Below, one piece after another: positions 15,623 to 31,156 of a stretch of DNA of 39,261 nucleotides. The notes beneath the pieces were generated by a model, which saw nothing but the letters and a program-made list of their open reading frames with translations, was not told the DNA's origin and made no database searches. The first letter of the stretch is position 1; each line of letters opens with the position of its first letter. Source of the DNA: Phytohabitans maris (lineage in GTDB: Bacteria > Actinomycetota > Actinomycetes > Mycobacteriales > Micromonosporaceae); contig NZ_JAVHUY010000071.1 in NCBI RefSeq assembly GCF_031085175.1, positions 1 through 39,261 on the forward strand, written 5' to 3'. The position numbers and the translations under genes were made by a program.

Positions 15623-16620
15623 GCAGTCCACGCGCCGGTCACGTCGTCGTCGTGGGCAGCGTCAACCTCGACATCTCGGTCAAGGTGCACCGCCTCCCAC
15701 ACCCGGGCGAGACCGTCCTGGCCACCTCGGTGCACCGCACCGGCGGAGGCAAAGGCGCCAACCAGGCCGTCGCCGCGGCACGAGCCGGCGGCACCGCCAC
15801 CAGCCTCATCGGACGCGTCGGCAACGACGAAGAGGGACGCATCATGCGCAGCCTCCTGCGACACGACCGCCTCGACCTACGGCTCACGACGCTGACCGAC
15901 GCGACCTCCGGCCTCGCCCTCGTCACCGTCGACGACCACGCCGAAAACTCGATCGTCGTCGCCCCCGGCGCCAACGCCTCACCCGTCCCGCTATCCCACG
16001 AGGACGCGCAGGTCGTCGCGCAGGCCGACGTGCTGCTCTGCCAACTCGAAACACCGCCCCAACTCGCCCTCGACGCCGCCGGACACCGCCGCCCAGGAGT
16101 ACCGCTCCTGCTCAACGCCGCCCCCGCGATGCCACTACCCGAAGCACTCTGGAACAGCATCGACATGCTCATCGTCAACCAGCACGAAGCCACCGAGCTG
16201 ACCCAGGACACCACCGGCACCCTGGACCACCGCATCGCCCAACTGCTCCAGCGGACCCCGACCGTCCTCGTCACACTCGGAAAGCAAGGAAGCCTGCTCG
16301 CCACCCGCGATCAACCATGGCTGCACCTGCCCGCACCAGCGGTGAACGCCGTCGACACCACCGCCGCCGGCGACACCTTCTGCGGCGTACTCGCCGCGGA
16401 ACTCGCCAACGGCGTAACCACCCCGAACGCGGTCGCCACCGCCAACGCGGCAGCGGCACTGGCGGTGACCCGACCAGGAGCCCAATCGTCGATCCCCGAC
16501 TACCCGGAGGTCACCGCGGCCGCCCTCGGCCTGCTCTCCGGCTGGACCGGCGAGGACGGCGTCAGGGTGTACGACGACGAGCCGGGCGACTCAGCCGAAC
16601 CGGCCGTTGACGTAGTCTGA
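15619..16620 (+). CDS. rbsK: Ribokinase-type PfkB family sugar kinase
   Basis: A cytoplasmic kinase of 333 residues that phosphorylates ribose or a related sugar at the expense of ATP. The first PfkB signature is GGGKGANQAVAAARAGG (42-58). The second is DTTAAGDTFCGVLAAE (246-261) with catalytic Asp252 and the anion-hole glycine. The substrate motif VVVGSVNLDIS near the N-terminus is typical of ribokinase rather than fructokinase. GGAG lies six bases before the ATG. No sugar transporter or ribose pyranase gene is nearby. The last 30 bases overlap the 3' end of pstB on the opposite strand, so the C-terminal tail (about 20 residues) is probably a late extension. Confidence 0.88.
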   Translation: MSSPRAGHVVVVGSVNLDISVKVHRLPHPGETVLATSVHRTGGGKGANQAVAAARAGGTATSLIGRVGNDEEGRIMRSLLRHDRLDLRLTTLTDATSGLALVTVDDHAENSIVVAPGANASPVPLSHEDAQVVAQADVLLCQLETPPQLALDAAGHRRPGVPLLLNAAPAMPLPEALWNSIDMLIVNQHEATELTQDTTGTLDHRIAQLLQRTPTVLVTLGKQGSLLATRDQPWLHLPAPAVNAVDTTAAGDTFCGVLAAELANGVTTPNAVATANAAAALAVTRPGAQSSIPDYPEVTAAALGLLSGWTGEDGVRVYDDEPGDSAEPAVDVV

Positions 16621-17526
16621 GGTACGCGGGTCCTGCGGGTCGTTGAACATCGCGTCTGTCGGGCCGTGCTCGACGATGTATCCGGGGGTGCCCTGCTCGG
16701 CGAGGAAGAACGCGCACCGGTTGGAGACGCGGGCGGCCTGCTGCATGTTGTGGGTGACGATGACGATCGTCACCTCCGCGACGAGTTCGGCGATGGTCTC
16801 CTCGATGACCCGGGTCGAGGTCGGGTCGAGCGCGGAGCACGGCTCGTCCATCAGCAGCACACGCGGGCGGATGGCGAGCGAGCGGGCGATGCACAGCCGC
16901 TGCTGCTGGCCGCCGGAGAGCGCCCCGCCCGGCTGGCGGAGCCGGTCACGGACCTCACGCCACAGCCCGGCCTTGGTCAGGCACTCCTCCACCAGGTTGT
17001 CCTTGTCGCCGCGCCGCATGCTGGTGCCGGTGAGCTTCAGCCCGGCGACCACGTTGTCGTAGATGGACATGGCCGGAAACGGGTTCGGCTTCTGGAAGAC
17101 CATGCCGATCTGCCGGCGCGCTTGGGTGATCCGCCGGGAGGAGTCGTAGATGTCCTGGCCGTCCAGCAGGACCTCGCCGGCGAGGCTGGCGCTCGGGATG
17201 AGCTCGTGCATCCGGTTGAGGATGCGCAGGAAGGTGGACTTGCCGCACCCGGACGGTCCGATGAGCGCCGTGACCTCACCCGCGCGCATCGACAGCGACA
17301 CCCGGTCGAGCACCTGGTGGTCGCCGAACCAGGCGGTGATCTGGCGCGCCTCCAGCCCGGCCAGTGGCATGCGCCGTCTGCCGGCCGGCGGCGGCTCGGC
17401 AAGCCCGCGGGACAGCTCGAGGGTGTCGTCGCGCCGCGCCGGCGCGGGGGCGACGACGGTATCGGCGGTCGCGGGACCGTGGCCCGGTCCGGCTTGCACG
17501 GTCACGGTGTCTTCATGCTCACTCAC
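16591..17526 (-). CDS. pstB: Phosphate ABC transporter ATP-binding protein
   Basis: The ATPase of the Pst phosphate importer. Walker A GPSGCGKST, the Q-loop VFQKPNPFP typical of PstB, signature LSGGQQQR, Walker B VLLMDEPCSALDP and H-switch VTHNMQQA are all intact. At 311 residues it is about 50 longer than usual: a Pro/Ala-rich N-terminal extension precedes the core, which starts at LEARQITAWFG. An internal ATG (residue 53) would give a normal length. It lies 31 bases after the sortase-fold gene, at the far end of the cluster, separated from pstC and pstA by about 11 kb of surface-protein genes; this separation is unusual. It must act with the PstC/PstA pair encoded at 28349-30623. Confidence 0.92.
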   Translation of the reverse strand: MSEHEDTVTVQAGPGHGPATADTVVAPAPARRDDTLELSRGLAEPPPAGRRRMPLAGLEARQITAWFGDHQVLDRVSLSMRAGEVTALIGPSGCGKSTFLRILNRMHELIPSASLAGEVLLDGQDIYDSSRRITQARRQIGMVFQKPNPFPAMSIYDNVVAGLKLTGTSMRRGDKDNLVEECLTKAGLWREVRDRLRQPGGALSGGQQQRLCIARSLAIRPRVLLMDEPCSALDPTSTRVIEETIAELVAEVTIVIVTHNMQQAARVSNRCAFFLAEQGTPGYIVEHGPTDAMFNDPQDPRTSDYVNGRFG

Positions 17527-17557
17527 GGCGCAAACGTCCTTCTCTTCGACACTTTCC

Positions 17558-18535
17558 TCACATCAGGTTGGGCAGCAGCCGGGCGATCTGGTCGGCGGTG
17601 CCCACGCAGAAGAAGACCAGCACCGGAACGGACACGGTCCACACCTGCCAGCGCCCCCAGTGCAGCCGGGCCACGGCGAGCAGCACGGCGGCCGCCACCA
17701 GCGCCTGGCCCCACAGGACGAGCTGCATCCACGCGAACTGGTCGGTGCCGAGCGCCAGCTCCGCCGTCGACAGGTCGCGCCTCGTGAGCGGCATCGGCGG
17801 CGTGGGCAGCGCTGGGGAGGTCAGGTCGGCGTCGACGCGGAGCACTCCGGAGGGCAGCAGCGGTGACCCGTCGGCCGTCGTCAACGTCAGCCGGCCGCCG
17901 CCCGCGGCGACGGGGGGCGGAAACGGGTCGCCACCACGGCGCACGCCAAGGACCCGGAACGTCGATACGCCCTGACCGGTGGTGACGGTGAAGGTGTCGC
18001 CCGGGTTCAATGTGGACAGTTGGCCGAACGGCCCGCCGTACGTCGTGGCCCGGCCCATGATCACTGAGACGCCGGACTGGCCCGGCATCGGCGTGTTACG
18101 CAGGTGGCCCGGTCCATTTTGGAGGATCGAGCCGGTGGTGCCCTCGAAGACCACCTCGCGCAGGTCGATCCGCGGGATCGAGAGCACGGCGACGGCGGTG
18201 CCTTGTGCGAGCAGCTTGCTCGGGTCGTCCGGCCGGGTGGGACCCACCGGCGCCGTCGCCTGCGCCAGCTCCTTGCGGAAGTTCGCGTAGGAGGTGTACT
18301 GCGCTCTCGCGTGGTGCAGCGAGGAGAACGCTCCGATGTACGTGGCGAAGATGAGCACCACGAACGAGAGGAGGAGCAGCATGGTCGACGCGACGCGCAG
18401 CGCCGACGGCGCCGGCTCGGTGCGGGCCGGCTCGCCCGAGGGACGGCCGTCCGGCGCGGCGGCGGGCATCGCCACACCGCCGGACCCGAGCTCCGTCGGG
18501 CGGTCGCTCGTGTCGCTGACGACGACGGCCGTCAT
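17558..18535 (-). CDS. Sortase-fold membrane protein lacking catalytic His and Cys (class E-like)
   Basis: A 325-residue membrane protein with one helix at about 49-70, an outer domain and two C-terminal helices (about 270-290 and 298-315). The outer domain follows class E sortases: VLSIPRIDL at 117-125, ILQNGPGHLRNTPMPGQSG, TTYGGPFGQLSTLNPGD and RLTLTTADGSPL. In active class E enzymes the first catalytic motif reads GHRTTYGAPF, but here it is GRATTYGGPF with Arg162 at the His position. The LTLTTC motif is LTLTTA, with Ala221 replacing the Cys. Arg233 may correspond to the catalytic Arg. It should therefore not perform transpeptidation but might still bind sorting signals. It overlaps the LPXTG-protein gene by four bases. 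Confidence 0.8.
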   Translation of the reverse strand: MTAVVVSDTSDRPTELGSGGVAMPAAAPDGRPSGEPARTEPAPSALRVASTMLLLLSFVVLIFATYIGAFSSLHHARAQYTSYANFRKELAQATAPVGPTRPDDPSKLLAQGTAVAVLSIPRIDLREVVFEGTTGSILQNGPGHLRNTPMPGQSGVSVIMGRATTYGGPFGQLSTLNPGDTFTVTTGQGVSTFRVLGVRRGGDPFPPPVAAGGGRLTLTTADGSPLLPSGVLRVDADLTSPALPTPPMPLTRRDLSTAELALGTDQFAWMQLVLWGQALVAAAVLLAVARLHWGRWQVWTVSVPVLVFFCVGTADQIARLLPNLM

Positions 18536-19179
18536 CCGCGTTCCTCCCCGGGTGCGGCCAGCGCCCGCCGCAGTGTGCGGCGCCGCCCCATGGCCGTCAA
18601 CAGGCCACCGATCACGATCAGCCCCACTCCAGCGCCGGCGAACCCGATCAGGCTGGCGCCGGTCCGCGGCAGGGAGCCACCCCCGCCACCGTCGGAGGGC
18701 CCGATCGGCACGTTCGCGACGATCGTGACCGTGAACGCGAAGCTCGCGGTGCGCTTTGACGTCCCGCCCTCGAACGTGAGGGTCCTGCGGCCCGCGCCGA
18801 GATCGGCCGGGAGCGAGATGTCCCGGCGAGCGGTGCCGTCCTGACCGGCGTCGACCGTGCCGAGGTCACGCCCGGCGCCGAGAGACATGGCGACCCGCTC
18901 ACCAGCCGCGAACCCGGTCCCGGTGCAGGAGAGCTCGTCGCCCGGGTGCAACGTCGGGTTGTCGCCCAGCGAGCCGCCACCGGCGCCGGCGCACGCCAGG
19001 CTGGCCTGTCCCGGCGGCATCGTGTGCTCGGGAACGGTGACCCTGACCGACTGCCCGTCGCCGGGCTCGGCGAGCGCGCTCGGCGCCGCGCCGAGCGCGG
19101 CCAGGCCAACGGTCAGGACGGCGAACAGGGCTCCCCTCGCCAGTCGCCGGCCGAAGCGGATCGCGTTTCGGTTCGACAT
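18532..19179 (-). CDS. LPXTG-type cell-wall-anchored surface protein
   Basis: A secreted protein of 215 residues. After a signal peptide (to about residue 37) comes a small beta-rich domain with two cysteines and the phrase HPGDELSCTGTGFAAGE, of the type found in small Ig-like surface modules. It ends with a complete sorting signal: a glycine-rich linker, LPRTG at 170-174, a hydrophobic stretch and an RRR tail. A housekeeping sortase elsewhere in the genome would be needed to attach it, since the adjacent sortase-fold protein lacks its active site. The ATG at 19179 has GAGGAG seven bases upstream and is preferred over the in-frame TTG at 19194. It lies 11 bases after the DUF916-like gene. Confidence 0.85.
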   Translation of the reverse strand: MSNRNAIRFGRRLARGALFAVLTVGLAALGAAPSALAEPGDGQSVRVTVPEHTMPPGQASLACAGAGGGSLGDNPTLHPGDELSCTGTGFAAGERVAMSLGAGRDLGTVDAGQDGTARRDISLPADLGAGRRTLTFEGGTSKRTASFAFTVTIVANVPIGPSDGGGGGSLPRTGASLIGFAGAGVGLIVIGGLLTAMGRRRTLRRALAAPGEERG

Positions 19180-19190
19180 GCTCGGGCTCC

Positions 19191-20492
19191 TCAATCCGGG
19201 TCGGGTGCGGCCGGCGGCGCGGCTTCGCCGGCACGGTCGGCGTCGGTCTCGTCATGGCCAGCCGGGCGGCTGCCGTTGCCGCCGGCCGCGATGGGAGCGA
19301 GCTGCGCGGGCGCGGCGTCGGCGGCGGGCTCGAAGAGGGCAGCGAGTGCTCCGCCGCCGGCAAGCGCGTCGTCGGCCTGCCCGGCGGCCTGCCGGCGGCC
19401 CCGCGCCTCCGCCGCCGCGAGCTTCGCGTTGAAGCGTCGGCGGCTCCAGCCCAGCCACCACCACAGGCCGGCGCAGACCGCGACGAGGATCAGCAACAGC
19501 ACGATCTGCGGCCACGGTGTCGCCCACAGACCCACCGTCTGCGCGGTCGGCGCGAGCGGACCGGACATCTGCGGCGCGCCCGGCACCTGCGCCGGCGTGA
19601 CCGTCACGTGGGCCTTCAGCGGCCCGGCGGGCAGGACACCGGCCATGCGCGCGGTGAGGCGTACGGAGTCGCCGGGCAGCAACTCCTCCAGGGTGGCGGG
19701 CTGGGTCACGGCCTCGGTGCCGAACACGCTCGTGACGGAAACGCTCTGGGCGCCGGACAGCCGGACGTTGCCGGTGTTGCGCACCGTGTACGCGATGACG
19801 GCGCCGCCACCACCGAACGGATTGGCGGTCCCGTCGTAGCTGGTGGACACCGCCTCCACGCCGAGCGCCGCGGTCAACGTGCCGGCCACGCGCAGGTAGG
19901 TGGCGACGGCGAAGCGGTTCTCCCGGTCGACCTGGCCGCCCGCGGCCTTCTCCGTGATCGAGGCGATCACGCCGCCCACGTGGTCGCCGGGGGTGGCGTT
20001 GGCCGGCACCGTGATGGTGAACCGCTCGACCACCCGCGTCCGTGGCGGCACCCGCAGGCTGGCGTGGGGTAGGCGGGTCCAGGCGCCGACGTCGGTCGGC
20101 TTCACGTCGGCGGTCGCCATCCCGATCGTGCCTTCGGGCAGGGTGATCCCGTCGGCGGCGTAAACCCGGAACGTGACCGGCGCGGTGCCGAGGTTGGTGA
20201 TGCTGACGTAGTCGCGCACCACCGCGCCGGGGCGGACGCCCTCGTACGAGAAGCGGGTGCGCCCGTCCGGGCCGCTGGCGTTGGCCGGCGCCACGGACCA
20301 CCGCGTCACCGCTCCCCCGCCCGGCGGTGTCGACTGTGGACCCTGGCCGGCCGGCGGCGACGGGCTCGGCGCCGGGGCGGCGACCGGCGTGGGCGGCTGG
20401 GCCACTGCCGCCACCGGAGCCGCGCTGGCCAGGAACACCGCGACGACCGGCACCAGGTGCCAGCCGCGGTAGGCCCGCCGACGGTTGATCAT
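19191..20492 (-). CDS. DUF916-like (WxLIP-type) membrane-anchored surface protein
   Basis: A 433-residue surface protein. A signal peptide is followed by a Pro-rich stretch (33-58). Two beta-sandwich regions come next: the first (about 65-165) has FSYEGVRPGAVVRDYVSITNLGTAPVTFRVY, the arrangement of DUF916 domains, and the second (about 205-300) resembles the partner domain, with IAYTVRNTGNVRLSGAQSV. A C-terminal helix at about 328-349 is followed by a charged cytoplasmic tail of some 80 residues. DUF916 proteins of Firmicutes bind WxL proteins and peptidoglycan, and the gene here follows a WxL-like gene. The assignment rests on motifs and context, not on a search. GAGGGG precedes the ATG. Confidence 0.75.
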   Translation of the reverse strand: MINRRRAYRGWHLVPVVAVFLASAAPVAAVAQPPTPVAAPAPSPSPPAGQGPQSTPPGGGAVTRWSVAPANASGPDGRTRFSYEGVRPGAVVRDYVSITNLGTAPVTFRVYAADGITLPEGTIGMATADVKPTDVGAWTRLPHASLRVPPRTRVVERFTITVPANATPGDHVGGVIASITEKAAGGQVDRENRFAVATYLRVAGTLTAALGVEAVSTSYDGTANPFGGGGAVIAYTVRNTGNVRLSGAQSVSVTSVFGTEAVTQPATLEELLPGDSVRLTARMAGVLPAGPLKAHVTVTPAQVPGAPQMSGPLAPTAQTVGLWATPWPQIVLLLILVAVCAGLWWWLGWSRRRFNAKLAAAEARGRRQAAGQADDALAGGGALAALFEPAADAAPAQLAPIAAGGNGSRPAGHDETDADRAGEAAPPAAPDPD

Positions 20493-20517
20493 CGAAGGTT
20501 CCCCTCATATGCCGATG

Positions 20518-20537: not shown

Positions 20538-20611
20538 ATCGGGATTACGCCTGTCAGGCGGCTGAGCGGATGAGGCGGGCCGCGGGACGACCTGCCCCAT
20601 CCCCCCGGTCG

Positions 20612-21940
20612 CTACTTGCTTACCAATGTGACGGTGAGGGTGGCCGAGTAGTCACCCGCCGGCGTCTCCTCGGGCACCTGAAGCTCCAGGGTCCCGCCGA
20701 GAGCGCAGTCACCGCCGCCCTTACCGGCATCCACAGTGGCCAGCGTGGCCTCCTGCTTCAGGCCCGGACTGCCCGGCGTGACGGGCGAACCCGCGACAAC
20801 CTCGTCGCACGCGTCGGCCACCTCCGGCGTCCAACCCAGGTTCTCCCCGCCGATCTTGTCGGTCCCGGTACCGGTGAAGTCCGAGGTCGATCCGGTGACG
20901 TACCAGCCGGCGAGCGAAGGGCGGTCGTCGGTCACGGTGATCGTGGCCAGTTGGCCCCGGAACGCCAGATCTCCGGCGCTCACCTGCTCCAGGTCCACCG
21001 CGTCGCCGGCGACGGACATGGTGAGCTCCCCGCTGCCGCCCCCCTGCGGGACGGTGACGTTGAGCGACTGGTTGCCCGACCCGCCGCCGGTGCCACCGGA
21101 GATCCTGACGGCCACCGCCTGCGAGGTGGACGGGGTGAACGCCGCAGGGTCGGTGGGCGTGAACTTCGCGGTCAACGAGTGCAGGCCGACCGGCAAGGTG
21201 TCCACCGTCAGCGTGGCCGTCCCGCCCGACACGTCATCGGTGCCCAACGACGCGGAGCCGTTCAGGAACTCCACACTTCCGGTGGCGCCTTCGCCGGACA
21301 CCGTCGCGGTCAGGGTTACGGCCTGCCCCGGCTGGGCGGTGGTCGGCTGGGCGTTCAGCGTGGTCGTGGTGGTGACCGCGCCGGGGTCGCCGCCGTCGAC
21401 GACCGCCCAGGTGCCGGCCGCCAGGTCGACGTGGATCCACGTGGTGGCCGCCGCCACGAACTGGGCGGCGCCGGTGTTGAAGCAGAGCAACGCGACCTGG
21501 TAGTCCCCGGACGGCAGCCCTTGCTCGCTGAAGATCCGCGCGAGTCCCCCGGCACCGAGGACGTCCAACCCGCCGCTCGGCGGCGTGTCCGACAGCCCGA
21601 AGATGTTCTCCGACAGCCGGACCAGCAGCGTGGGCGGGGTTCCCTCCCGCACGATCTGAACGTTCGCGGCGAACCGGTTGGCGGTCGGGCAGGCGATCGT
21701 GCTGGTGAACGTTCCCATCGTCTCGGCGCTTGTCGAGCCACTCGTGGGGTTGAGGGTCAGGCCACCTGGACCGTCGCCGACATCGGCCTGCGCGGCCGGT
21801 GCGTACAGGACCGCGCCGGCCACAGCCGCGCAGAGACCGGCGAGTGCCGCGGCGCGGCGTCTGTGCCGGCCCCGGTCAGCGGTGGTGCCCCCACCAGGCG
21901 CTGCCGCACTCTCGCGACGCCTGGGAGCTGTAGCGTTCAT
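20612..21940 (-). CDS. Secreted protein with novel N-terminal domain, Ig-like repeat and WxL-like C-terminal domain
   Basis: A 442-residue exported protein without membrane anchor. After a signal peptide (to about 53) comes a ~125-residue domain that also forms the whole of the protein encoded at 22090-22551. A bacterial Ig-like repeat (about 190-280) has the phrases TLTATVSGEGATGSVEF and GLHSLTAKFTP. The last ~150 residues look like a WxL domain: ITVTDDRPSLAGWYVTG, then LGWTPEVA, and a final GDYSATLTVTLVSK that corresponds to the YxxTLTWTL motif with Val instead of Trp. WxL domains bind peptidoglycan or DUF916 partners, and a DUF916-like gene follows. The ATG at 21940 has GGGGAA upstream. 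Confidence 0.75.
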   Translation of the reverse strand: MNATAPRRRESAAAPGGGTTADRGRHRRRAAALAGLCAAVAGAVLYAPAAQADVGDGPGGLTLNPTSGSTSAETMGTFTSTIACPTANRFAANVQIVREGTPPTLLVRLSENIFGLSDTPPSGGLDVLGAGGLARIFSEQGLPSGDYQVALLCFNTGAAQFVAAATTWIHVDLAAGTWAVVDGGDPGAVTTTTTLNAQPTTAQPGQAVTLTATVSGEGATGSVEFLNGSASLGTDDVSGGTATLTVDTLPVGLHSLTAKFTPTDPAAFTPSTSQAVAVRISGGTGGGSGNQSLNVTVPQGGGSGELTMSVAGDAVDLEQVSAGDLAFRGQLATITVTDDRPSLAGWYVTGSTSDFTGTGTDKIGGENLGWTPEVADACDEVVAGSPVTPGSPGLKQEATLATVDAGKGGGDCALGGTLELQVPEETPAGDYSATLTVTLVSK

Positions 21941-22039
21941 TGACGATAGTTCCCCACTTCCTGTTTCGTGGCCCACGCCTCATGCCTGGGCCGGCTGATT
22001 CCACTCCCCAGGACGGCTAGGCGGATCGGTGCCGGTGAC

Positions 22040-22075: not shown

Positions 22076-22089
22076 GCTACGCCCAACCG

Positions 22090-22551
22090 CTAGATGAGCG
22101 CCTTCCAGGTGCCGGCCTCGACGTCGATCTTGATCAGGTTCACGTCGGCCTTGACGGACTCGAATGCGGCGTTGAAGCAGAGCACGTCGACCTCGTAGTA
22201 ACCGGTGGTGAGGTTGCCGGCGAGGACGGTGAAGATGAGGGCCGTGTCCAGCGTGCCGCTCGGTCTCGCGGCGGTCGGCACGAAGTTGCCGCTCAGGCGC
22301 AGGGACGTGCCGTCCGGAGCGGCCAGGGCGACCATGCCGGCGGTGCGGTGGTCGGCGGGGCACGCCTTGGTCGCCGAGTAGCTGGCCATCGGGTTGTCGT
22401 TGACCGACCCCTTCGTCGGCGACAGGCGGAGCAGCCCGGGCCAGTTGCCACCGTGGGCCTGGGCCGGCGCCGGCGCGGCGATCACGGCAACGGCCGCGGC
22501 CGCGGTGGCGCCGAAGACCGCCAGGCTACGACGTACATTCCGCAGTTTCAT
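22090..22551 (-). CDS. Small secreted protein made of one unnamed domain
   Basis: A 153-residue exported protein: signal peptide to about residue 32 (ending in APAQAHGG), then a single domain. The domain starts LRLSPTKGSVNDN, has two cysteines (ATKACPADH and VDVLCFN) and ends NLIKIDVEAGTWKA. The N-terminal domain of the next protein has the same landmarks: LTLNPTSGS, TIACPTAN, YQVALLCFN and WIHVDLAAGTW. This marks a shared domain, probably stabilised by a disulfide, that I cannot place in a named family. The ATG at 22551 is preferred over the frame start at 22599 because the signal peptide begins there. It is likely part of the extracellular complex made by this cluster. Confidence 0.7.
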   Translation of the reverse strand: MKLRNVRRSLAVFGATAAAAVAVIAAPAPAQAHGGNWPGLLRLSPTKGSVNDNPMASYSATKACPADHRTAGMVALAAPDGTSLRLSGNFVPTAARPSGTLDTALIFTVLAGNLTTGYYEVDVLCFNAAFESVKADVNLIKIDVEAGTWKALI

Positions 22552-22610
22552 CACGTACCTTCTTTCCTCGCGGGTATGACGCACTCGGTATACATCCACG
22601 TTTGCCTATG

Positions 22611-22710: not shown

Positions 22711-23868
22711 CTAGAGGGTGGCGAATGCGCGCAGGTTCGGGTCGACCACGCCGCAGCGCGAGCCGATGGTGCCGAACCCGTACTCGGTGATCCGGCCGGT
22801 GAAGGAGCAGACCCCGACCAGCGGGTTGCTGCCGACGAAGATGGTGTTGAGGGTGTTGCTGGTGCCCGCGTCGACGGCCGCGCGCGAGATCACGTTGTAG
22901 ACCTCGCGGACGAGGCTCGGGTGGAACTGCGTGTTGAGCCGCAGACCGGTCGAGTCGAACGGCGACAGCGTGCCGATGTTCTGCAGGCGGGCGCCGTCAC
23001 GGCGGTCGATGGCCGGGTGGCTCTGCTGCGAGAGCCACTGGGCGATGGAGTACGGCATGAGCGCGTTGTGGTCCAGCCGGACCGCCGTGCCGTCGTGCTC
23101 CTGCACCGACTGCGCGGCACCACCGGCGGTCGGCGTGAACGTGTCCCTCACCCAGGCCGGCGGAGTCGTCGCGTTGATGCCCATCGCGCCGGCGAAGAAG
23201 TTCCGCGTCCCGGAACCGGGCTGCGGGATCAGCAGGTGGATCTCGGTACCGGTCAGACCGTCGTCGGTCCGCGGGTCGTAGGTGACGCCGTTGCTGGCGA
23301 CCGCCGGCGTACCGGCGCTGTACATCGCCTGCAGCTCAGCCAGGTCGAAAGTGCCCCCGATGACGGTGGCGTCCGCCCCCGACGCCGGACCCACCGCGAC
23401 CGTCACGCCGTCCAGCGCGAACGGGATGTACTGCAGCAGACCCTGCGGGCTCGCGTTGCCGCCCGGACCGCTGGAGGAACGGGCGAAGTCGAAGCAGCCC
23501 GAACCCGCGGCCCACGTCGCGCCGGGGTAGGTGGCCGTCGACGTCGCCGACAGCGAACGGCGCAGGGCGGCCACACCCTCGCTGGAGCCGTTCGGCCGCG
23601 AGATGTCGGTGCAGGCCGCGGTGGTCTTGGTGTCGATCAGGTCGTGGGCCGCGCCGGTCGTCGGGTTGAGCGCGTTCCACGAGCTGTACCCGGCGTCGTT
23701 GGCGATCGCGTTCATCACGTCCTGGGTGGTGTCCGAGCCGCCACCGTCGACGTTGATGCTCGTGCTGGGACCCGCCGGGTCCGCGGCAGCCGGGCCGGCC
23801 ACGCCGACCATGACGCCGGCGGCCAGCGCGCATGCGCCCGCGGCACCGATGAAGCTCTTCAGCTTCAT
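22711..23868 (-). CDS. Secreted PstS-like substrate-binding protein
   Basis: A 385-residue exported binding protein with signal peptide (to about 28) and no lipobox or membrane anchor. The mature part starts INVDGGGSDTTQDVMNAIAND, in the place of the phosphate-contact GAGST loop of PstS. A second ligand loop is LLIPQPGSGTRNFFAGAMG, corresponding to the SGT loop of PstS. Other segments (CTDISRPNGSSEGVAALRR, FDFARSSSGP) suit a PBP-like fold. Whether it binds phosphate is open, because the loops differ from true PstS. AGGGGTGAAC precedes the ATG at 23868. It lies 162 bases downstream of the 877-residue gene. Confidence 0.78.
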   Translation of the reverse strand: MKLKSFIGAAGACALAAGVMVGVAGPAAADPAGPSTSINVDGGGSDTTQDVMNAIANDAGYSSWNALNPTTGAAHDLIDTKTTAACTDISRPNGSSEGVAALRRSLSATSTATYPGATWAAGSGCFDFARSSSGPGGNASPQGLLQYIPFALDGVTVAVGPASGADATVIGGTFDLAELQAMYSAGTPAVASNGVTYDPRTDDGLTGTEIHLLIPQPGSGTRNFFAGAMGINATTPPAWVRDTFTPTAGGAAQSVQEHDGTAVRLDHNALMPYSIAQWLSQQSHPAIDRRDGARLQNIGTLSPFDSTGLRLNTQFHPSLVREVYNVISRAAVDAGTSNTLNTIFVGSNPLVGVCSFTGRITEYGFGTIGSRCGVVDPNLRAFATL

Positions 23869-24030
23869 GTGTTCACCCCTTTCAGGGCTGAGAACCGTGC
23901 TCGACCTGTTTGATCGAGCCACGACAATCCTTGCGATCGACAATGGTGGCCAGTACCCCGTTTTGGAGTCAGGTTGGCAATTCCAAGGAAACGCCAATAT
24001 TAAGAGGAAGTAACAGGAGCGGATGGCTTG
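23869..24030 (-). promoter_or_regulatory. AT-richer spacer, possible internal promoter
   Basis: This 162-base spacer is richer in A and T than its surroundings. It contains TTGGC (23974-23978) and GCCAA (23993-23997) as a loose dyad around TTCCAAGGAA, and the ribosome binding site of the following gene. Together with the downstream terminator it suggests that the gene at 22711-23868 can be expressed as its own unit. No convincing -35/-10 pair was identified. Confidence 0.35.
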
Positions 24031-26664
24031 TCAATTAGCGCGCCGGGTGCGGCGAAGTAGGCGATTTAGTGCTGGGGGCAGATGTCGCAGGAGTACGCCG
24101 CCGAGGCTGCCGCCGGCACCGGCGACAAGCGCGGCGACCAGCACCCAACGGATGATTCCAAGGGCGTCGTCGGGGGTCGAACCGGCGGCGAGGCCGGCGG
24201 GGGGCTGGCTCACCGTCCCCCCGGACGGCACCGCGCTCGGGCTGGCGGGCACCGGTGAGGCACCACCGTTGGGCACACCGGCCCCGCCGTTCGCATCGGA
24301 GTCGCCGCCGCCGGTCTGCCCGCCGGATGGGCTCGGCGACGGGCTGGGCCCCGCAGCGGCGATCTCCCGAAGCGTCTGCGCGGTGGCACGTGTCTTCGCG
24401 CGCAGGTCGGCGGGGAGTGGCAGGTAGCCGGGCGGGAGCTGGCCCACCTCGACGCCGGAGGTCTGCCCGGCGCCGGCGGCGTAGTCCAGCAACGCGGCGG
24501 TGTCGCGCAGCGCGGCTGGGTCCTGGTTCGTGCGGACGGCGGCGTAGACGATCTGGGTGAGCGGGTACCCGCCCGCGCCGGGGGCCGCGGGGTCGACGCG
24601 CAGTAGCCCGGCACTGTCCGCTTTCGCGGCCGCCACCGCGGCGGTAAGGCTGGCCGCCGACGGGGCGACGCAGCCGGCGCCGTCGGAGGAGCACAGGTTG
24701 GCGGTGGGCAGCCCGTAGCGGGCGCTGACCGAGGCCGCGGTGATCGCCCAGCTGAAGCGCTGGCCGAGAGCCCTCGGCGCCGGCTTCGCCCACCATCCGG
24801 CGTTTCCTTCAGGGGACAAGCCGTTCGGATCCCAGCCGGCGGTGCCGTGCGTGTTGCCGCGCTGCACGTGGACGGCGGCGTCCTCGAGGTTGAGGGCGTA
24901 CGGCACGTAGTCCACCGAGGTGAAGCAGGCGTCCGCCGGAGGGGCGGGGTTTCCGCTGGTGATGTGGGTGCAGGTGGGGTCGGCGCGCGGGTAGCTGCTG
25001 CCCGGGGGCGGGTCACCGAGCTTGAGCGCCTGGTAGTTCGGGTTGACCACCATGCCCCCCGCATCGGCCGTTCCACCCAGCCAGGACCGGGTGCCCGGCT
25101 CGGACTGGATCCAGCCCCAGACCGCCTGGTTGACCGCGGACTGGTCGGCGGTCGTCATCGGCGCCAGCGTGATGACGGCGTTCGAGAGCGTGGCGACCTC
25201 CGGGTTGAGCGCCTTCCACCGCGGGTCGTCGACGATCGTCAGCCGGACCGCCTTCATCCACTCCGGCTGGACGAAGTCGTTTCCGCTGGAGGCACCGCCC
25301 GGGAGGTCACCGCGGTACGACTGGGTCAGCGCCTTCGCCACCAGCTCCGGACCGACGCCGATCCGCTGCACCTGCTGGGTTTCGGAGCCCTTCCGCACGT
25401 CGATGCGGAAGGCGAAGGTGATGCCCGTGACCGCCACCGGGGCGTAGACCAGCGGCGGGCCCTGATCGGCGAAGGCGATCGGCTTGGTGGTGAAGGCGAG
25501 CCCGGCCGAGCCGGGCAGGTTGCTGGCCAGCTGGACGGCGTTCGTGGCGTCCGCGGTGTGCGTGAAGCTGTAGACCGCGCCGCCGTTCTGACACAGCGCC
25601 GGCTGCCAGGAGGTCATCATGTTCGCGACCAGCTCGGTGCCGATCACCGGCCGCTGCACGGTGTCCTGCGGGCAGATGTTGCTGGTGGGCAGGAAGTCCA
25701 GGTGCACCTGCAGGCGCTGCGCCCAGTTGCTCGCGCTGAGCGGCGACTCGCTGACACCCTGACGGTTTTGGCTGGAGGCGTCGGGCGACAGCTGGCCACG
25801 TGGCACGATGACCAGCCAGCAGCCCCGCGGAGCCCCGCCGCCTTCGGTGTCGCGGTCGCCGCAGCCCAGCCCGGTGGCCTCCCGCCCGGTCTGCACCTCG
25901 AAGGAGACTTGCCCGGTGCCGTCCGTGGACGTGGCCGCCACGGGGACCTCGTTGGTCGACTGGGACTGGAAGTACGTGCCCAAGGTCGGCTTGGTCGGGT
26001 CGCCGCCCTCGCTGATGTCGTCGAGGTAGATCTTCTCGCCGGTGTCGACCGGGATGAACGGAACGTAGTACTGGCTTGCGTCACTGGGGTTGTCGTGGTC
26101 GGGCCCGGTTGGTTCGGCCGGATCGCAGCCGTTGCCGAACCCGGGGCATTTGGTGCCCCTGCGCTCGTCCTGCAGCTTGTTGCCCCCGGGGCCTTCGGGC
26201 AGGCTGCTGACGCCGAAGCCGCCCCACTGGCAGCCCTCGGGATCAGGGCCGGTGGGTGCGTCACCGTAGCACTGCATGATCTGCAGGTAGTTTCCGGAGA
26301 GGAAGCTGACGTCCGTCGGGGCGCCTCCGGTCCACGCGACCTGCACCCCCTGGTGTGTGAGGCCCTCGGTCTGGCTCACGGTGACCGTGAGGTCCTTGTA
26401 CCTGGCCCGCAGATCCTCGTAGAAGGCGTCGGCTCCGCTCTTCTGCCGCGGCGTGGCGATCGTCTGGTTGTCCGACCTCGTGATGCCGTCGGACCACTTG
26501 ACGGTGACCGCCGAGTCGGTGCCGCCAAACCCGCTGATCGGATCGATGGCGGCCTCCGCCTGCCGGTCCGGGCCGAGTGGGTCCACAACGGCCAGCGCCG
26601 TCGCCGCCACCAGGGCGGCCACGCCGGCGGCCACCCGGCGGCGGATGCTGCCGCGGCGGGTCAT
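24031..26664 (-). CDS. Very large PstS-like protein with C-terminal membrane anchor
   Basis: An 877-residue exported protein, more than twice the length of PstS. It has a signal peptide (to about 38), then a long region with phosphate-binding-protein-like segments: NYLQIMQCYG, TKPIAFADQGPPLVYAPVAVTGITFAF and PLTQIVYAAVRTNQDPAALRD, the last two resembling the central and C-terminal lobes of PstS. Several Cys pairs suggest disulfides. A Pro/Ser/Gly-rich linker follows (about 765-830), then a membrane helix near 840-860 and a basic tail. The start overlaps the pstS stop by four bases (ATGA). It is probably fixed on the outer face of the membrane next to the Pst permease. The extra N-terminal ~350 residues have no function I can name. 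Confidence 0.78.
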   Translation of the reverse strand: MTRRGSIRRRVAAGVAALVAATALAVVDPLGPDRQAEAAIDPISGFGGTDSAVTVKWSDGITRSDNQTIATPRQKSGADAFYEDLRARYKDLTVTVSQTEGLTHQGVQVAWTGGAPTDVSFLSGNYLQIMQCYGDAPTGPDPEGCQWGGFGVSSLPEGPGGNKLQDERRGTKCPGFGNGCDPAEPTGPDHDNPSDASQYYVPFIPVDTGEKIYLDDISEGGDPTKPTLGTYFQSQSTNEVPVAATSTDGTGQVSFEVQTGREATGLGCGDRDTEGGGAPRGCWLVIVPRGQLSPDASSQNRQGVSESPLSASNWAQRLQVHLDFLPTSNICPQDTVQRPVIGTELVANMMTSWQPALCQNGGAVYSFTHTADATNAVQLASNLPGSAGLAFTTKPIAFADQGPPLVYAPVAVTGITFAFRIDVRKGSETQQVQRIGVGPELVAKALTQSYRGDLPGGASSGNDFVQPEWMKAVRLTIVDDPRWKALNPEVATLSNAVITLAPMTTADQSAVNQAVWGWIQSEPGTRSWLGGTADAGGMVVNPNYQALKLGDPPPGSSYPRADPTCTHITSGNPAPPADACFTSVDYVPYALNLEDAAVHVQRGNTHGTAGWDPNGLSPEGNAGWWAKPAPRALGQRFSWAITAASVSARYGLPTANLCSSDGAGCVAPSAASLTAAVAAAKADSAGLLRVDPAAPGAGGYPLTQIVYAAVRTNQDPAALRDTAALLDYAAGAGQTSGVEVGQLPPGYLPLPADLRAKTRATAQTLREIAAAGPSPSPSPSGGQTGGGDSDANGGAGVPNGGASPVPASPSAVPSGGTVSQPPAGLAAGSTPDDALGIIRWVLVAALVAGAGGSLGGVLLRHLPPALNRLLRRTRRAN

Positions 26665-28352
26665 GCCGGCCCTCCGGGCATCGTGAAGTCGTCGGAGCGG
26701 CGCTGCCGGCGCCGGGCGCCGGCCTGGGCGATCAGCGGCGGGCCCAGGCCGAGGGCGAGCAGCAGCACACCGGCCAGCACCATGAGTACGATGCGGAACC
26801 CGCCGCCGAGGCCGGCCTCGGCGGAGACCGGCTGGCCGAAGACGTTGGGGTCACCGGTGTTGCCGCCGGCCTGGCCGCAATCCTGGGTATCCGGATCGCA
26901 GGCGCCTTGTTGCGCGATGGGGTTGCTGCCCGGGTCCGGGGTGCCGCTCGGGTTGGTGCTGGGCCCGCCGGTGTTGCCGCCGCCCGGGCCACCGCCGCCC
27001 GGACCGCCGGTCCCGTTGTTGACCGGGGTTTCCTGGTTCTTGGCGCCGGCGGTGCCCGTCGCGCACTGCGTCGGGCCCTTCTTGTCGCAGTCCGGCGGCT
27101 TCGGGTCGGTCTTCGCCAAGGTGTTGGTGCCGTCGGTGGAGAAGGTCGGGTTGTTGCACGACCGGATGACGATGTTGCCGACCTTCGCGCCAGGGATCTT
27201 GCGAAGCTGGTCGAAGCCGGCCTGCACCAGGTTGATCGGCAGCGCGGAGTAGCCGAGCGCGTTGACCTGGGTCTGCCCCTGGCAGAGCGCGTACTTGCCG
27301 AAGTCGGCGAGCGTCTCGCCCTTGGCGGTGGTCATCGGCGCATTCAGCGAGACCGGCAGGATCATGTACGAGTAGCCGGACAGCGGGTAGGTACGCGGAT
27401 CGGTGTTGGTGTACACCTGGGACAGATCCTGGGTCAGGTACACGTTCGGGTCGTTCTTGTTCTGGTTGATCCTGGCCTTGAGCAGCGAGACGGCGACGTG
27501 GCCCGCGGTCGGCTCCGTGTAGTAGCCGCCGTTGTTGAGCATCTTCACCACGGGAAAGCCGGCCTGGATGGCGTACGAGTACTGGACGTAGCCGATGGCG
27601 CCGTTGGCCTGCGGTTGGGCCACGTAGCCGGCGACGCCGAGGTCACCGGCCTGGGCCACCATGCCCCGGCCGGGCACGATCGGGTACACCGAGGTCTGGG
27701 TGCACGGGTTGCGGCGCGCCGCGGCGCAGTAGGCGTTCCATATGGAGCGCTGCGTGCCGACCATCCACTGGGTGAGCTGCGCGGTCGACCCGGACCCCTC
27801 CGACCGCACCACGGGGACGATCCGGATCGCGGGCAGTCGCGACCGCAGCCCGGGGTTGTCTTCCTTGATCGCCGCGTCGTTCCACATCGTGATGCCGCCG
27901 GTGAAGATCCGGGCGATGGTGGTTCCCGACAGCCGTAGGTTCGTCACCCGCTGGTTACCGATCTTGAGGTTGTACATGAACGTGGTGCCGCCGGCGGTGA
28001 CGGGCATGTAGGCGAACGGGTGCGCCTGTGTGGGCGGCAGGTCCAGGTTGTTGCCGTCCTTGATCCCGTACGGGATGTCGGAGGCGGCCCAGTCGACGGT
28101 GCCGGACCGGAACTGGTTGCGGCCGTCCGACGAACCGGTGCCGGCGTAGTTCACGGTCATGCCGAACTGGGCGACGTTGCGCCGCCAGGAGTCGACGGCG
28201 TTTTGCGACCAGGTCGACCCCGCGCCGTTGATCGTCACGTACGCGAGCGCCGCCGGCGGCCGTACGAGTACACCGGCGCCGGTGGCAAGCACCAGCGTGC
28301 ACGCCACCGCGAGCCAGCGGCGCGGGCGGCCGGGACGGGACGTGGTGGTCAT
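26661..28352 (-). CDS. pstS: Phosphate-binding protein PstS with C-terminal membrane anchor
   Basis: The phosphate-binding component of the Pst importer, 563 residues. Ligand-contact loops are preserved: INGAGSTW just after the signal peptide, NYAGTGSSDGRNQF, the SDIPYG aspartate loop and RSEGSGSTAQLT. Ordinary PstS is about 370 residues and a lipoprotein. Here the signal peptide has no lipobox, and the C-terminus adds a Gly/Pro/Asn-rich linker with two CxxxxxxC-like pairs, a membrane helix (about 525-545) and a basic tail. It is therefore anchored through its C-terminus. The ATG at 28352 overlaps the pstA stop by four bases. Confidence 0.9.
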   Translation of the reverse strand: MTTTSRPGRPRRWLAVACTLVLATGAGVLVRPPAALAYVTINGAGSTWSQNAVDSWRRNVAQFGMTVNYAGTGSSDGRNQFRSGTVDWAASDIPYGIKDGNNLDLPPTQAHPFAYMPVTAGGTTFMYNLKIGNQRVTNLRLSGTTIARIFTGGITMWNDAAIKEDNPGLRSRLPAIRIVPVVRSEGSGSTAQLTQWMVGTQRSIWNAYCAAARRNPCTQTSVYPIVPGRGMVAQAGDLGVAGYVAQPQANGAIGYVQYSYAIQAGFPVVKMLNNGGYYTEPTAGHVAVSLLKARINQNKNDPNVYLTQDLSQVYTNTDPRTYPLSGYSYMILPVSLNAPMTTAKGETLADFGKYALCQGQTQVNALGYSALPINLVQAGFDQLRKIPGAKVGNIVIRSCNNPTFSTDGTNTLAKTDPKPPDCDKKGPTQCATGTAGAKNQETPVNNGTGGPGGGGPGGGNTGGPSTNPSGTPDPGSNPIAQQGACDPDTQDCGQAGGNTGDPNVFGQPVSAEAGLGGGFRIVLMVLAGVLLLALGLGPPLIAQAGARRRQRRSDDFTMPGGPA

Positions 28353-29602
28353 GAGGTCTCTCCCTGCGCTGTGCTCGACGAGAAGGGGGCCGGGTCGGCT
28401 GCGGTGCGCGCGGTGAATCGCCTGAGGTCGCGGCGGGACGCGGCGGCGCGGCGGCGGCGCTGGCCGGCGGTGAGCTCGCCCGGCCCGCGGCCGCCGATGA
28501 CGCGGGCGACGGCAAACAGCAGCAGCACCAGCAACATCAGCGTGACGGCGGTGCCGAAGCCGCGGACGACCATGTTCTCCTGCGAGTTCTGCACCAGCGT
28601 GTAGGCCAGCAGGGGGAGGCTCATCATCGGCCCGTTGACCGGGTCGGTGTTTACCTGAGCGGTGGCGCCGGCGGTGATCAACACCGGGCTTGTCTCGCCG
28701 ATCCCTCGGGCCGCGCCGAGGATCACCGCCGTCGCCAGCCCGGACCGTGCGGTCGGCAGCACCACGTGCCAGACCGTGCGCCACTGTCCGGAGCCCAGCG
28801 CGTACGACGCCTCGGTCAGGTTGCCCGGGACCAGCCGCAGCACCACGTCGGTCGCCCGGATGATGATCGGCAGCATGGTGACCGAAAGAGCCAGGGCCGC
28901 GGCGAGGCCGGACTTGTCCAGCCCGAAGATCAGAATCACCGTGGCGAAGATGAACAGGCCGGCCAGCAGGTCCGGCAGCGCGGTCATCGCCTCGACCACG
29001 GTGCGCACGAACCGGGAGAACCGGCCGGGGATCTCGTGCAGGAACACCCCGCCGAGCAGGCCCAGCGGCACCGAGACGGCCAGCGCGATGCCGAGCTCGA
29101 TCAGGGTACCGACGATGGCGTGCTTGACGCCGCCCACGGTCAGCGGGTCGAGCGGGCCGGCGTTGCGCATGTCCTGGGTGAAGAAGTTGAGGTGCAGCAG
29201 CGCCCGAAAGCCGCGCCAGCCGGTGTAGACGAAGATGTAGGCCAACACGCCGAACAGCACGACGGCGATGGAGTGCACGACCACCGACGAGACGCGGTCC
29301 CACATGGCCGGCCGGTCTTCGTCGAACGAGACCAGCAACGCGTAGGTGGCGACGAAGAGCAGCCAGCTCGCCACCACGAAGCCGAGCCATCCGGTGAACG
29401 GTCCCAGCTGGCTCCACAGTAGACCTGTCGTGGTCAGCGACGCGGCCAGCCCGCCGATCAGCGCGAAGACGTCGGTCTTGCGAAACCCGCCGAGCCGGCG
29501 GCGCACCTGCCCGCCGTACGGGCGGCCGCGGTCCGGGATCGTGGTGCGCGGCGCGGCGACCGTCGTAGCGCGCGGGTATGCCTCGGTCTTGAGCAGTGTC
29601 AT
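28349..29602 (-). CDS. pstA: Phosphate ABC transporter permease PstA, extended
   Basis: The second permease of the Pst importer. The core (about 120-375) carries GGVKHAIVGTLIELGIALAVSVPLG, the family motif FLHEIPGR, the coupling loop GSGQWRTVWHVVLPTARSGL and GAARGIGETSPVL. At 417 residues it exceeds the usual ~290: about 110 N-terminal residues bring two extra membrane helices (near 46-62 and 70-90), and a basic cytoplasmic tail of ~45 residues follows the last helix. The start is four bases after the pstC stop. Confidence 0.92.
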   Translation of the reverse strand: MTLLKTEAYPRATTVAAPRTTIPDRGRPYGGQVRRRLGGFRKTDVFALIGGLAASLTTTGLLWSQLGPFTGWLGFVVASWLLFVATYALLVSFDEDRPAMWDRVSSVVVHSIAVVLFGVLAYIFVYTGWRGFRALLHLNFFTQDMRNAGPLDPLTVGGVKHAIVGTLIELGIALAVSVPLGLLGGVFLHEIPGRFSRFVRTVVEAMTALPDLLAGLFIFATVILIFGLDKSGLAAALALSVTMLPIIIRATDVVLRLVPGNLTEASYALGSGQWRTVWHVVLPTARSGLATAVILGAARGIGETSPVLITAGATAQVNTDPVNGPMMSLPLLAYTLVQNSQENMVVRGFGTAVTLMLLVLLLFAVARVIGGRGPGELTAGQRRRRAAASRRDLRRFTARTAADPAPFSSSTAQGETS

Positions 29603-29606
29603 CGCC

Positions 29607-30623
29607 TCAGACCTCGCTCACCGCGCCAGACCGCGAACGGGCCACGATGGACGCCGCGATGAAGTTGACGACGAGGGTCACCGCGAAAAGCGCCAGTCCG
29701 GCCGCGAACAGCGCGCTCAGCGCGAACGGGCTCGACTCGCCGTAGTGCGTGGCGATCAGGCTGGAGACGCTGGAGGTGCCGTTTTCCAGGATGCGCGGCT
29801 GGATCACGAACACGGGCGAAATGATCATCACCACTGCGATCGTCTCGCCCAGCGCCCGGCCGAGACCGAGCATGGTGCCGCCGATGATCGCGCCCTTGCC
29901 GAACGGCAGCACGACGGCGCCGATCATGCCCCACCGCGTCGCGCCCAGCGCGTACGCGCCCTCCCGCTCACCGGCCGGCGCCTGGCTGAACGCCTCGCGC
30001 ATCACCGAACAGGCGATCGGCGCCACCATCAGCGCCACCACGAGGCCGGCGATGAACGTGCTCGACGTGTAGACGGTCTCCGTCGCCAGCGGGTCGTGCC
30101 GGGTGACGCCGTTGACCTTGAAGATCGGGATCCAGCCGAACCAGTCGGAGATCCACCGGGACAGGCTCAGCACCTTCCACTGGAGGAAGAACGCCCCCCA
30201 CAACCCGAAGACGACGCTTGGCACGGCGGCCATCAGGTCGACCATCGCGATCAGCGTGCGCCGCAGCCAGAACGGCGCGAACTCGGAGATGTAGAGCGCG
30301 ACGCCCACGGACAGCACCGTGGCCACGACGATCGCGACGATCGCGATGAGGACGGTGCCCAGGATGACGGCCGCGATGCCGAACTCGCCGCTGTCCGGGT
30401 TCCACTCCTGGGTGGTGAGGAAGCTGGGCCCGGCCTTCCGCAACGCCTGCAAGGCCCGGTAGGTGAGGAACAGGCCGACCAGCGTCATGATCACTAGCAC
30501 GAGGGCGCCGCCACCGCGGGCGACGGCGCGAAACACCCGGTCGGCCAAGCCGAGGTTTGCCTTCAGGCGCCGCCGCCGTTGCGTCTCCTGCCCCTCCGGG
30601 TGGGCCAGGGCGACACCGGTCAC
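29607..30623 (-). CDS. pstC: Phosphate ABC transporter permease PstC
   Basis: The first permease of the Pst importer, 338 residues with six helices. The family landmarks are ALYISEFAPFWLR, the DLMAAVPSVVFGLWGAFFL segment, REAFSQAPAGEREGAYALGATRW (coupling loop) and GLGRALGETIAVVMI. The start is a GTG at 30623, overlapping the stop of the preceding small gene by four bases (GTGA). There is a short charged N-terminal region before the first helix. It pairs with PstA. Confidence 0.93.
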   Translation of the reverse strand: MTGVALAHPEGQETQRRRRLKANLGLADRVFRAVARGGGALVLVIMTLVGLFLTYRALQALRKAGPSFLTTQEWNPDSGEFGIAAVILGTVLIAIVAIVVATVLSVGVALYISEFAPFWLRRTLIAMVDLMAAVPSVVFGLWGAFFLQWKVLSLSRWISDWFGWIPIFKVNGVTRHDPLATETVYTSSTFIAGLVVALMVAPIACSVMREAFSQAPAGEREGAYALGATRWGMIGAVVLPFGKGAIIGGTMLGLGRALGETIAVVMIISPVFVIQPRILENGTSSVSSLIATHYGESSPFALSALFAAGLALFAVTLVVNFIAASIVARSRSGAVSEV

Positions 30624-31156
30624 GGCTGCCCCTCGCGGCTGTACCGCGACGGCGCCGGACCCCGCCGGTCACGCAGCCCGCGGACCACATCGGTGACCTC
30701 GGCCTCCACCACGGCGTCCAGGAACCGCTTCGCCGCGTACCGGGCGTTCTGCTCCTGCTCGTAGCGATTGCCCGCCGCGACCGGCGCGCCGTCGAGGTCT
30801 CCCCGCCAGCTGAACTGCCCGGTCATCGGGTCGGCGACCGTGCTGAGCACCAGCCGGGCGGAAGAGCCCTGGACCTCCCGCACGGCTTGGCGGCACAGCC
30901 CAGGGTCGGCGAACCGGAACACGCTACGGGCCAGCTCGCGATTGTTCGCGGTCATCAGCCGCCACGCGTACCAGCCGGGTTGCGCGGGCGAACGCGGGCC
31001 GCGGCGCCGCACCGCGGCCACAGGCAGCGGCTCGGCGGCCTCCACCTCCACCGAGTTGACCCACGCCGGTGCGGGCGAGGCGAGCGGCCACCCCAACCAA
31101 TCCGGGGCCGCGGATGGCGGCAGCAGATGCACAAAGAACCGGACAGGTGCCGCCAT
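30620..31156 (-). CDS. Conserved-looking hypothetical protein at the head of the pst cluster
   Basis: A 178-residue soluble protein with no signal peptide or membrane segment. The central part (about 75-165) reads WYAWRLMTANNRELARSVFRF, then a Cys-containing helix, then FSWRGDLDGAPVAAGNRYEQEQNA. This recalls the strand-helix-strand pattern of YegP/DUF1508-type domains, but only loosely. I would not assign a function. The ATG at 31156 has GGAG eight bases upstream, while the longer frame from 31204 lacks one. It is the first gene of the pst cluster and is coupled to pstC by a four-base overlap, which suggests a cytoplasmic partner or regulator of the transporter. Confidence 0.6.
   Translation of the reverse strand: MAAPVRFFVHLLPPSAAPDWLGWPLASPAPAWVNSVEVEAAEPLPVAAVRRRGPRSPAQPGWYAWRLMTANNRELARSVFRFADPGLCRQAVREVQGSSARLVLSTVADPMTGQFSWRGDLDGAPVAAGNRYEQEQNARYAAKRFLDAVVEAEVTDVVRGLRDRRGPAPSRYSREGQP

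Follow-up and report, generated by a model that had tools for sequence, protein, structure and literature searches.

The closest described systems are the PstSCAB phosphate importers, the Csc/WxL surface clusters of Firmicutes, the class E sortases and PstS-1 of Mycobacterium tuberculosis. The locus compared with them here is a gene cluster of Phytohabitans maris (Micromonosporaceae), and the window analysed was an entire 39-kb contig (39,261 nucleotides; NZ_JAVHUY010000071.1, assembly GCF_031085175.1) of a 9.87-Mb genome. The cluster runs leftward from 31204 to 16591 in the order DUF1508-like gene, pstC, pstA, pstS, the gene of an 877-amino-acid (877-aa) protein (pbp877), the gene of a third PstS-like receptor (pbp3), small, wxl, wxlip (DUF916-like), lpxtg, a sortase-fold gene and pstB. 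The importer is of the Pst kind and added subunits set it apart. As in PstSCAB, PstC, PstA and PstB match Pst models and PstS keeps nearly all phosphate-contact positions; unlike PstSCAB, the cluster also encodes two extra PstS-type proteins, a sortase-fold protein without catalytic residues (dead sortase) and surface proteins, a transmembrane segment replaces the lipobox of PstS, no phoU was recognised in the window's cluster, and an ordinary pst locus coexists with it. From sequence comparison it is proposed, with moderate confidence, that the cluster encodes a Pst-type importer of an oxyanion, probably phosphate, whose outer face would be a multi-receptor surface assembly with the dead sortase as a structural subunit.

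The other three comparisons gave likenesses of a more partial kind. WxL-like, DUF916-like and LPXTG-type secreted proteins stand side by side as in the Csc/WxL clusters of Firmicutes, but here this module is optional, its motifs are mostly WxV and always WxP, no DUF3324 match was found, and the small secreted protein is a copy of a two-cysteine domain (domain X), not a WxL domain. In three Csc/WxL texts (PMC1534035, PMC9772566 and PMC10599100), the word "phosphate" and the searched transporter terms each occurred 0 times. The best-scoring sortase model of the dead sortase was that of class E (NF033747, 1.1e-21, under cut-off), with SrtE1 as PDB match (5CUW, 1.9e-8); unlike class E sortases, it has extra C-terminal transmembrane segments, lies in a transporter cluster and lacks the catalytic His and Cys. 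In the PDB, the sequence matching the 877-aa family best was PstS-1 (over the C-terminal lobe, 2.1e-8); the 877-aa protein differs from it in its long N-terminal region, in a membrane segment at the C-terminus and in that none of the phosphate-contact residues is kept in the profile alignment to PstS. The preliminary description of this DNA knew of no described system of such composition, and a literature search, with preprints and most subscription papers outside it, likewise found no description of the cluster.

The window cluster belongs to a system conserved among actinobacteria. When species genomes were scanned with the 877-aa family, whose gene was the selection gene, 158 relatives were obtained; the best 80 of the 158 were fetched as loci and all 80 were actinobacterial. 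A gene was scored as present when its profile matched at any position of the locus on the same strand; presence was counted in the 61 loci with enough flank, and 19 short-flank loci were left out. Some sets contain the loci of two Phytohabitans species twice (L043/L057 and L044/L056). All 61 loci had pstC, pstS, the sortase-fold gene and pstB; pstA and the third receptor were present in 60/61, the DUF1508-like gene and the wxl profile in 52/61 (the latter profile also picks up Ig/LAXTG proteins; Ig, immunoglobulin) and the DUF916-like gene in 26/61. The gene order, which the preliminary description had for a single strain, recurs across actinobacterial loci.

A reverse search with the sortase-fold profile over 394 sampled genomes of the class reached 1e-30 or better in 55 (the weakest matches were partial), and nearly every locus examined was this cluster. 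Among the 30 loci retrieved, pstB was within about 1.5 kb in 21 and the pattern of Arg for the catalytic His was present in 29, with L195 not matching. Two of the nine loci without a near pstB end at contig ends on that side (L176 and L180), and six, L171 not being among them, were extended with longer flanks. These six showed the 877-aa gene in 6/6, the third receptor in 6/6 and pstS in 5/6 (L206 begins at a contig end); pstB was farther away in L207 and L208, and L209 ends early. Chance co-location of the cluster genes was ruled out by this recurrence among loci, including those of the reverse search. As a variant of the order, the sortase-fold gene precedes the third receptor in L207-L209 and L213.

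The catalytic His position of the sortase-fold protein was Arg in 75/75 rows (73 distinct places), and the catalytic Cys position was Ala in 70, Gly in 3 and Thr in 2, with the catalytic Arg retained in 64. Alignments of the dead sortase used subsets (57 rows, 9 in the first one). Alignment with solved sortases placed GR opposite the catalytic GH, and five of six sortases of the same genome showed GH where the dead sortase has GR and TC where it has TA, L200 being misaligned. Transmembrane segments were predicted near both ends (C-terminal in 73/73, N-terminal in 72/73) and the mean identity was 52% across 65 loci. Pseudogene decay was ruled out by the identical replacements in all 75 rows together with this mean identity; this identity and the fixed positions show that the protein is maintained, therefore the chemistry was lost without decay, and judged by these residues it cannot be an ordinary sortase. 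Distance-matrix correlations of the dead sortase were best with PstA (0.89) and PstB (0.85) over the 65 loci, a co-variation that would fit a permease subunit and is only suggestive.

The receptor alignments were subsets: PstS had 45 rows, the third receptor 54 and the 877-aa protein 78. The PstS family matched solved PstS proteins at 1.9e-48, and its ligand positions, which we take to be those numbered in E. coli PstS, were placed with an alignment to the solved proteins. The equivalents of S38, R135, S139 and G140 were kept in 45/45 rows, T10 was Thr or Ser in 45/45 and T141 was Thr or Ser in 44/45; the Asp56 equivalent was Glu in 42/45 and Asp in 3/45 including the window, and the Phe11 equivalent was Trp in 44/45. 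A C-terminal hydrophobic or membrane segment was found in 78/80 PstS proteins, and no lipobox was found in the window PstS. The AlphaFold model of the 877-aa protein (predicted local distance difference test, pLDDT, 82) had PstS proteins as its best PDB structure matches (6.4e-11, target-normalised template-modelling score about 0.7), and a C-terminal membrane segment was present in 82/85 family members. Its profile alignment with PstS (98.4% probability) has, by our reading, other residues or gaps in place of the Thr, the Ser, the Asp and the Arg...SerGlyThr loop; the protein is a membrane-tethered PstS fold whose phosphate site appears to have been lost.

The third receptor matched PDB phosphate-type receptors weakly (7.3e-8) and did not match the system's own PstS profile (0.9% probability, E 0.06); its assignment as a receptor is made because of the PF12849 match, the PDB match and the motifs, and not from the PstS-profile comparison. 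It keeps GSDTT and GSGT loops, and near the PstS acidic position it has Arg in 54/54, Ser in 52 and Ser in 54 rows, an equivalence drawn by eye where the profile alignment is poor. No C-terminal membrane segment was found in this family (0/82), and in L068 (Glaciihabitans) and L062 (Cellulomonas) its frame runs on into Ig-like repeats. The four catalytic motifs of PstB were intact in 73/73 proteins.

The surface proteins differ among loci. Domain X, with two invariant cysteines, had 142 copies in 72/88 loci, duplicates included; in the window it forms the small protein and the N-terminal portion of the WxL-like protein, and over 129 positions these two share 37% identity (4e-18). No Pfam match, including no WxL match, was found for the window small protein, and Pfam scans of 87 domain X members gave three with one match each, to three different families (E 0.003-0.006). 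The domain X model (pLDDT 77) had no PDB match at E ≤ 0.001, weak beta-sandwich or Fn3-like matches being the only ones. By these comparisons, domain X is a new two-cysteine domain recurring in surface proteins. The link to the WxL and DUF916 families that the preliminary description had drawn was above cut-off in some relatives and not in the window: at the same position, WxL was above cut-off in L081 (31.1 vs 25) and below it in L101 (20.6), and WxLIP was above it in L101 (31.0 vs 27.3) and L078 (33.1) and below it in L081 (25.6). The aligned domains do not carry two Trp-x-Leu motifs: the first motif of 42 aligned domains was WxV in 32, WxL in 7, WxA in 2 and WxI in 1, and the second was WxP in 42/42; the window motifs are WYV and WTP. 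The DUF916 part was matched, and DUF3324 had no match in the window or in L101, L081 and L078. Many Streptomyces have one LAXTG protein with an Ig-like domain after the third receptor, and L058 had no detectable separate surface protein and no Ig-repeat extension of the third receptor. An LPXTG/LAXTG-type signal was found by pattern between the third receptor and the sortase-fold gene in 40/60 loci. The DUF916-like count given above and the varying loci therefore indicate a fixed core to which the WxL/DUF916 part is added as an optional module.

The DUF916-like protein had matches in 20/41 near genomes, and the 20 stretches fetched around DUF916-like matches included pst-type clusters with these genes in eight: the near species L043 and L044, L036, the genus copies L045 and L046, and three other genera (L047, incomplete, L052 and L053). 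L036 (contig 1 of the window genome, 128000-147999) is a diverged second copy of the system, with PstB 78% and PstS 51% identical to those of the window and an extra pair of WxL-like and DUF916-like genes downstream of pstB. The ordinary pst locus of the same genome is separate, on contig 9 (L037 among the 20 stretches). Most other fetched stretches lacked a pst cluster and carried WxL-like and/or DUF916-like genes; three of them from the same genome (L039, L040 and L042) have a DUF916-like gene adjoining WxL-like genes and are free-standing actinobacterial WxL-type modules.

Upstream regions of the first gene were compared in 76 loci for the k-mer test and the cruder scan and in 53 for the repeat test, with relatedness not corrected for. 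Fragments of GTTCACC, which we take to be the PhoP-box unit, made up the top three enriched 6-mers (GGTGAA in 32/76 vs 7.7 expected). Direct GTTCACC repeats scoring at least 11 of 14 were present in 12/53 first-gene regions vs 19/350 intergenic controls of the same loci (p 1.6e-4). The window has one clear GTTCACC unit, and two Phytohabitans relatives (L056 and L057) also have GTTCACCT upstream of their clusters. The signal is modest, and phosphate regulation of the cluster through PHO-box-like repeats is suggestive only. The sigma-70 and terminator scan gave nothing above shuffles. Apart from the PHO-like unit, Streptomyces-type upstream regions (e.g., L066, L076 and L134) have a conserved AGGGGCAAC element, and AGGGGCAA was found in 17/76 upstream regions vs 0.3 expected. 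The window also has a tandem repeat of about 17 bases upstream of the cluster at 31430-31463, TATAACGACCTAAAGTC / TGTAACGACCTAAACAG, whose core AACGACCTAAA was not on the cluster's strand in L056 and L057.

In the proposed importer, the intact PstB and the PstC/PstA permease would drive ATP-dependent import, as supported by the PstB motifs. The receptor side would comprise a near-canonical tethered PstS, an altered secreted receptor and the tethered, apparently site-less 877-aa fold, the last probably serving as a docking hub and not as a receptor. The dead sortase may be a structural or regulatory permease subunit that holds receptors or receptor tails non-covalently, without cleavage; extension of the receptor platform through the thick wall could fall to the optional proteins bound there (domain X, Ig, WxL-like and LPXTG/LAXTG). 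Outside the membrane, such a complex would catch phosphate or a closely related oxyanion, pass it to PstCA and complement the ordinary pst locus. The preliminary description had supposed that the products concentrate phosphate or a phosphate-containing polymer at the permease or sense with it; both remain conditional, with modest regulatory support. It is tentatively put forward, at somewhat less than even confidence, that a sortase fold became a non-catalytic subunit of an ATP-binding cassette (ABC) importer and a PstS fold a site-less docking hub, together making, in actinomycetes, a wall-spanning multi-receptor machine for the capture of phosphate or another oxyanion, with a conserved seven-gene core and exchangeable surface modules that carry the new domain.

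Several results weigh against the proposed importer. Three clusters of one genus (L204-L206) had no pstB in the fetched stretch; ATPase sharing between clusters is possible in one of these genomes because it has a second cluster with pstB (L210). Glu in place of Asp at the key phosphate position of 42/45 PstS proteins could mean another oxyanion. No phoU or phosphate two-component gene was found in profile scans of the window's cluster genes, relatives not having been searched. The distance-matrix correlation of the dead sortase with the receptors was 0.76-0.79, and its co-variation with PstA and PstB partly comes from shared ancestry. Upstream of the cluster, most of the top-ranking 7- and 8-mers belonged to other elements, the cruder PHO-box scan gave a mean best score of 9.84, with random genomic stretches reaching 9.34 and shuffles 9.17, and PHO-box-like repeats were missing from many loci.

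That another oxyanion is imported, or phosphorylated compounds set free at the surface, and that the third receptor supplies the specificity, is rather unlikely. This reading would fit the Glu at the Asp56 equivalent, the third receptor, which keeps its GSDTT/GSGT loops but has Arg-Ser-Ser (by eye) at the PstS acidic position, and the phosphomutase-family gene found downstream in 18 loci. However, PstS retains its remaining phosphate-contact positions in 44-45 of 45 rows (with Trp for Phe11 in 44) and the window PstS has Asp; we also know of no other established substrate of Pst-type permeases, which counts against it.

A sensor, in which the Pst-like permease and its receptors report extracellular phosphate or the state of a wall polymer with the DUF1508-like protein as cytoplasmic partner, is considered unlikely. 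The window's cluster genes included no recognisable kinase, response regulator or PhoU, the PstB motifs are intact throughout and the DUF1508-like gene was not found in 9/61 loci, although its presence in the other 52, the altered or apparently lost sites in two of the three receptor folds and the ordinary pst locus in the same genome are what a sensor would lead one to expect.

The preliminary description had seen the locus as a Csc/WxL-like complex built into a phosphate transporter locus. Its conserved unit was confirmed; the Csc part as the core was not, since the DUF916-like gene is in 26/61 loci, L058 has no separate surface proteins detected, and the Pst permease, three receptors and dead sortase are near-universal. 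That a Csc/WxL adhesion or polymer-binding complex is nevertheless the functional core, with the Pst genes recruited to it, is very improbable: the WxL-, DUF916- and LPXTG-type proteins of the window and the same genome's pairs of DUF916-like and WxL-like genes outside a pst cluster speak for it, against the Pst core genes in 60-61 of 61 loci. It is scarcely credible that the sortase-fold protein is still an enzyme that anchors the adjacent LPXTG protein through other residues, since for all its retained fold, the Arg position kept in 64/75 rows and the sorting-type signal in 40/60 loci, Arg stands for His and Cys is absent at its position in 75/75 rows, 20/60 loci lack such a signal there and Cys/His-bearing sortases are found elsewhere in the genome.

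If the dead sortase and the site-less fold assemble with the Pst permease, the picture of receptor capture across the thick Gram-positive wall would change, and the sortase fold would have, to our knowledge, its first non-enzymatic role. No reported role of a dead sortase or a site-less receptor fold was found in the literature search. Phosphate control governs antibiotic production in Streptomyces, and the assembly, if real, would bear on phosphate control.

All genes named in the preliminary description were present, leftward and at the place it gave, and the cluster is slightly longer than first stated because the DUF1508-like gene (30620-31204) leads it (Table 1). The gene caller was a GC-position heuristic, and some open reading frame starts were too long. 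With the start codons that we chose, the overlaps of 4 bases in two runs were borne out: DUF1508-like/pstC, pstS/pbp877, wxlip/lpxtg and lpxtg/sortase-fold; the pstA/pstS overlap is also 4 bases if the ATG at 28352 is taken as start. Gaps were 4 bases for pstC/pstA, 31 for sortase-fold/pstB and 119-156 between pbp877, pbp3, small, wxl and wxlip. The window DUF1508-like copy itself had no DUF1508 match in the Pfam profile scan; among seven homologues scanned, L119, L094 and L098 were above the Pfam cut-off, two matched below it and two had no match.

Table 1. Coordinates of the cluster genes and of the upstream element in the window, with the profile matches of each product.
Feature	Coordinates	Strand	Basis and remarks
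Single PHO-box-like unit, GTTCACC	31351..31357	-	Upstream of cluster; consensus as we take it to be; weak evidence
DUF1508-like (YegP-like) small protein, first gene	30620..31204	-	Profile matches of homologues; 4-base overlap with pstC
pstC, permease	29607..30623	-	TIGR02138 1.7e-72, above cut-off
pstA, permease	28349..29602	-	TIGR00974 9.7e-59, above cut-off
pstS, phosphate-binding-type receptor with C-terminal transmembrane segment, without lipobox	26661..28352	-	PBP_like_2 (PF12849) 1.4e-30
pbp877, 877-aa protein: N-terminal uncharacterised region, PstS-fold domain (~335-770), C-terminal transmembrane segment	24031..26664	-	PstS model TIGR00975 2.8e-9, 36.5 bits, well below cut-off 205
pbp3 (428 aa), third PstS-like receptor, secreted, without C-terminal anchor, anion-site motifs altered	22711..23895	-	PBP_like_2 (PF12849) 1.5e-5, slightly below cut-off; PDB phosphate-type receptors; motifs; likely ATG ~23868
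small, small secreted protein, one copy of two-cysteine domain X	22090..22599	-
wxl, surface protein: domain X, Big_3_5 Ig-like domain, WxL-like domain	20612..21976	-	PF16640 7e-17; PF13731 (WxL) 4e-4, below cut-off
wxlip, DUF916-like (WxLIP_PGBD-like) membrane protein	19191..20492	-	PF06030 (WxLIP/DUF916) 5e-4, below cut-off
lpxtg, LPXTG protein: LPRTG, then transmembrane segment and Arg-rich tail	18532..19194	-	LPXTG anchor 0.01, below cut-off
Dead sortase: class-E-like sortase fold, three predicted transmembrane segments	17558..18535	-	Sortase domain PF04203 1e-14, above cut-off; catalytic His to Arg, Cys to Ala
pstB, ATPase, catalytic motifs intact	16591..17526	-	TIGR00972 2.9e-101, 338 bits, slightly below cut-off 343.2

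Directly upstream of the cluster, at 31481-35093, are genes for an FtsX-like permease and an ABC ATPase, which were rejected as part of the system as the FtsX-like profile was present in 2/61 long-flank loci, both Phytohabitans. At the other end, a pfkB-family sugar kinase gene (15619-16620) on the opposite strand converges on the end of pstB with a slight overlap. Among the relatives, 18 loci (e.g., L066, L107 and L117) share a phosphomutase-family gene downstream, the 14 named ones being of Streptomyces together with L058 (Wenjunlia). The flanking genes of this group, with one example each by Pfam, encode phosphoglucomutase/phosphomannomutase, nucleoside phosphorylase and DeoC; the cluster may therefore sit among nucleoside-salvage genes there.

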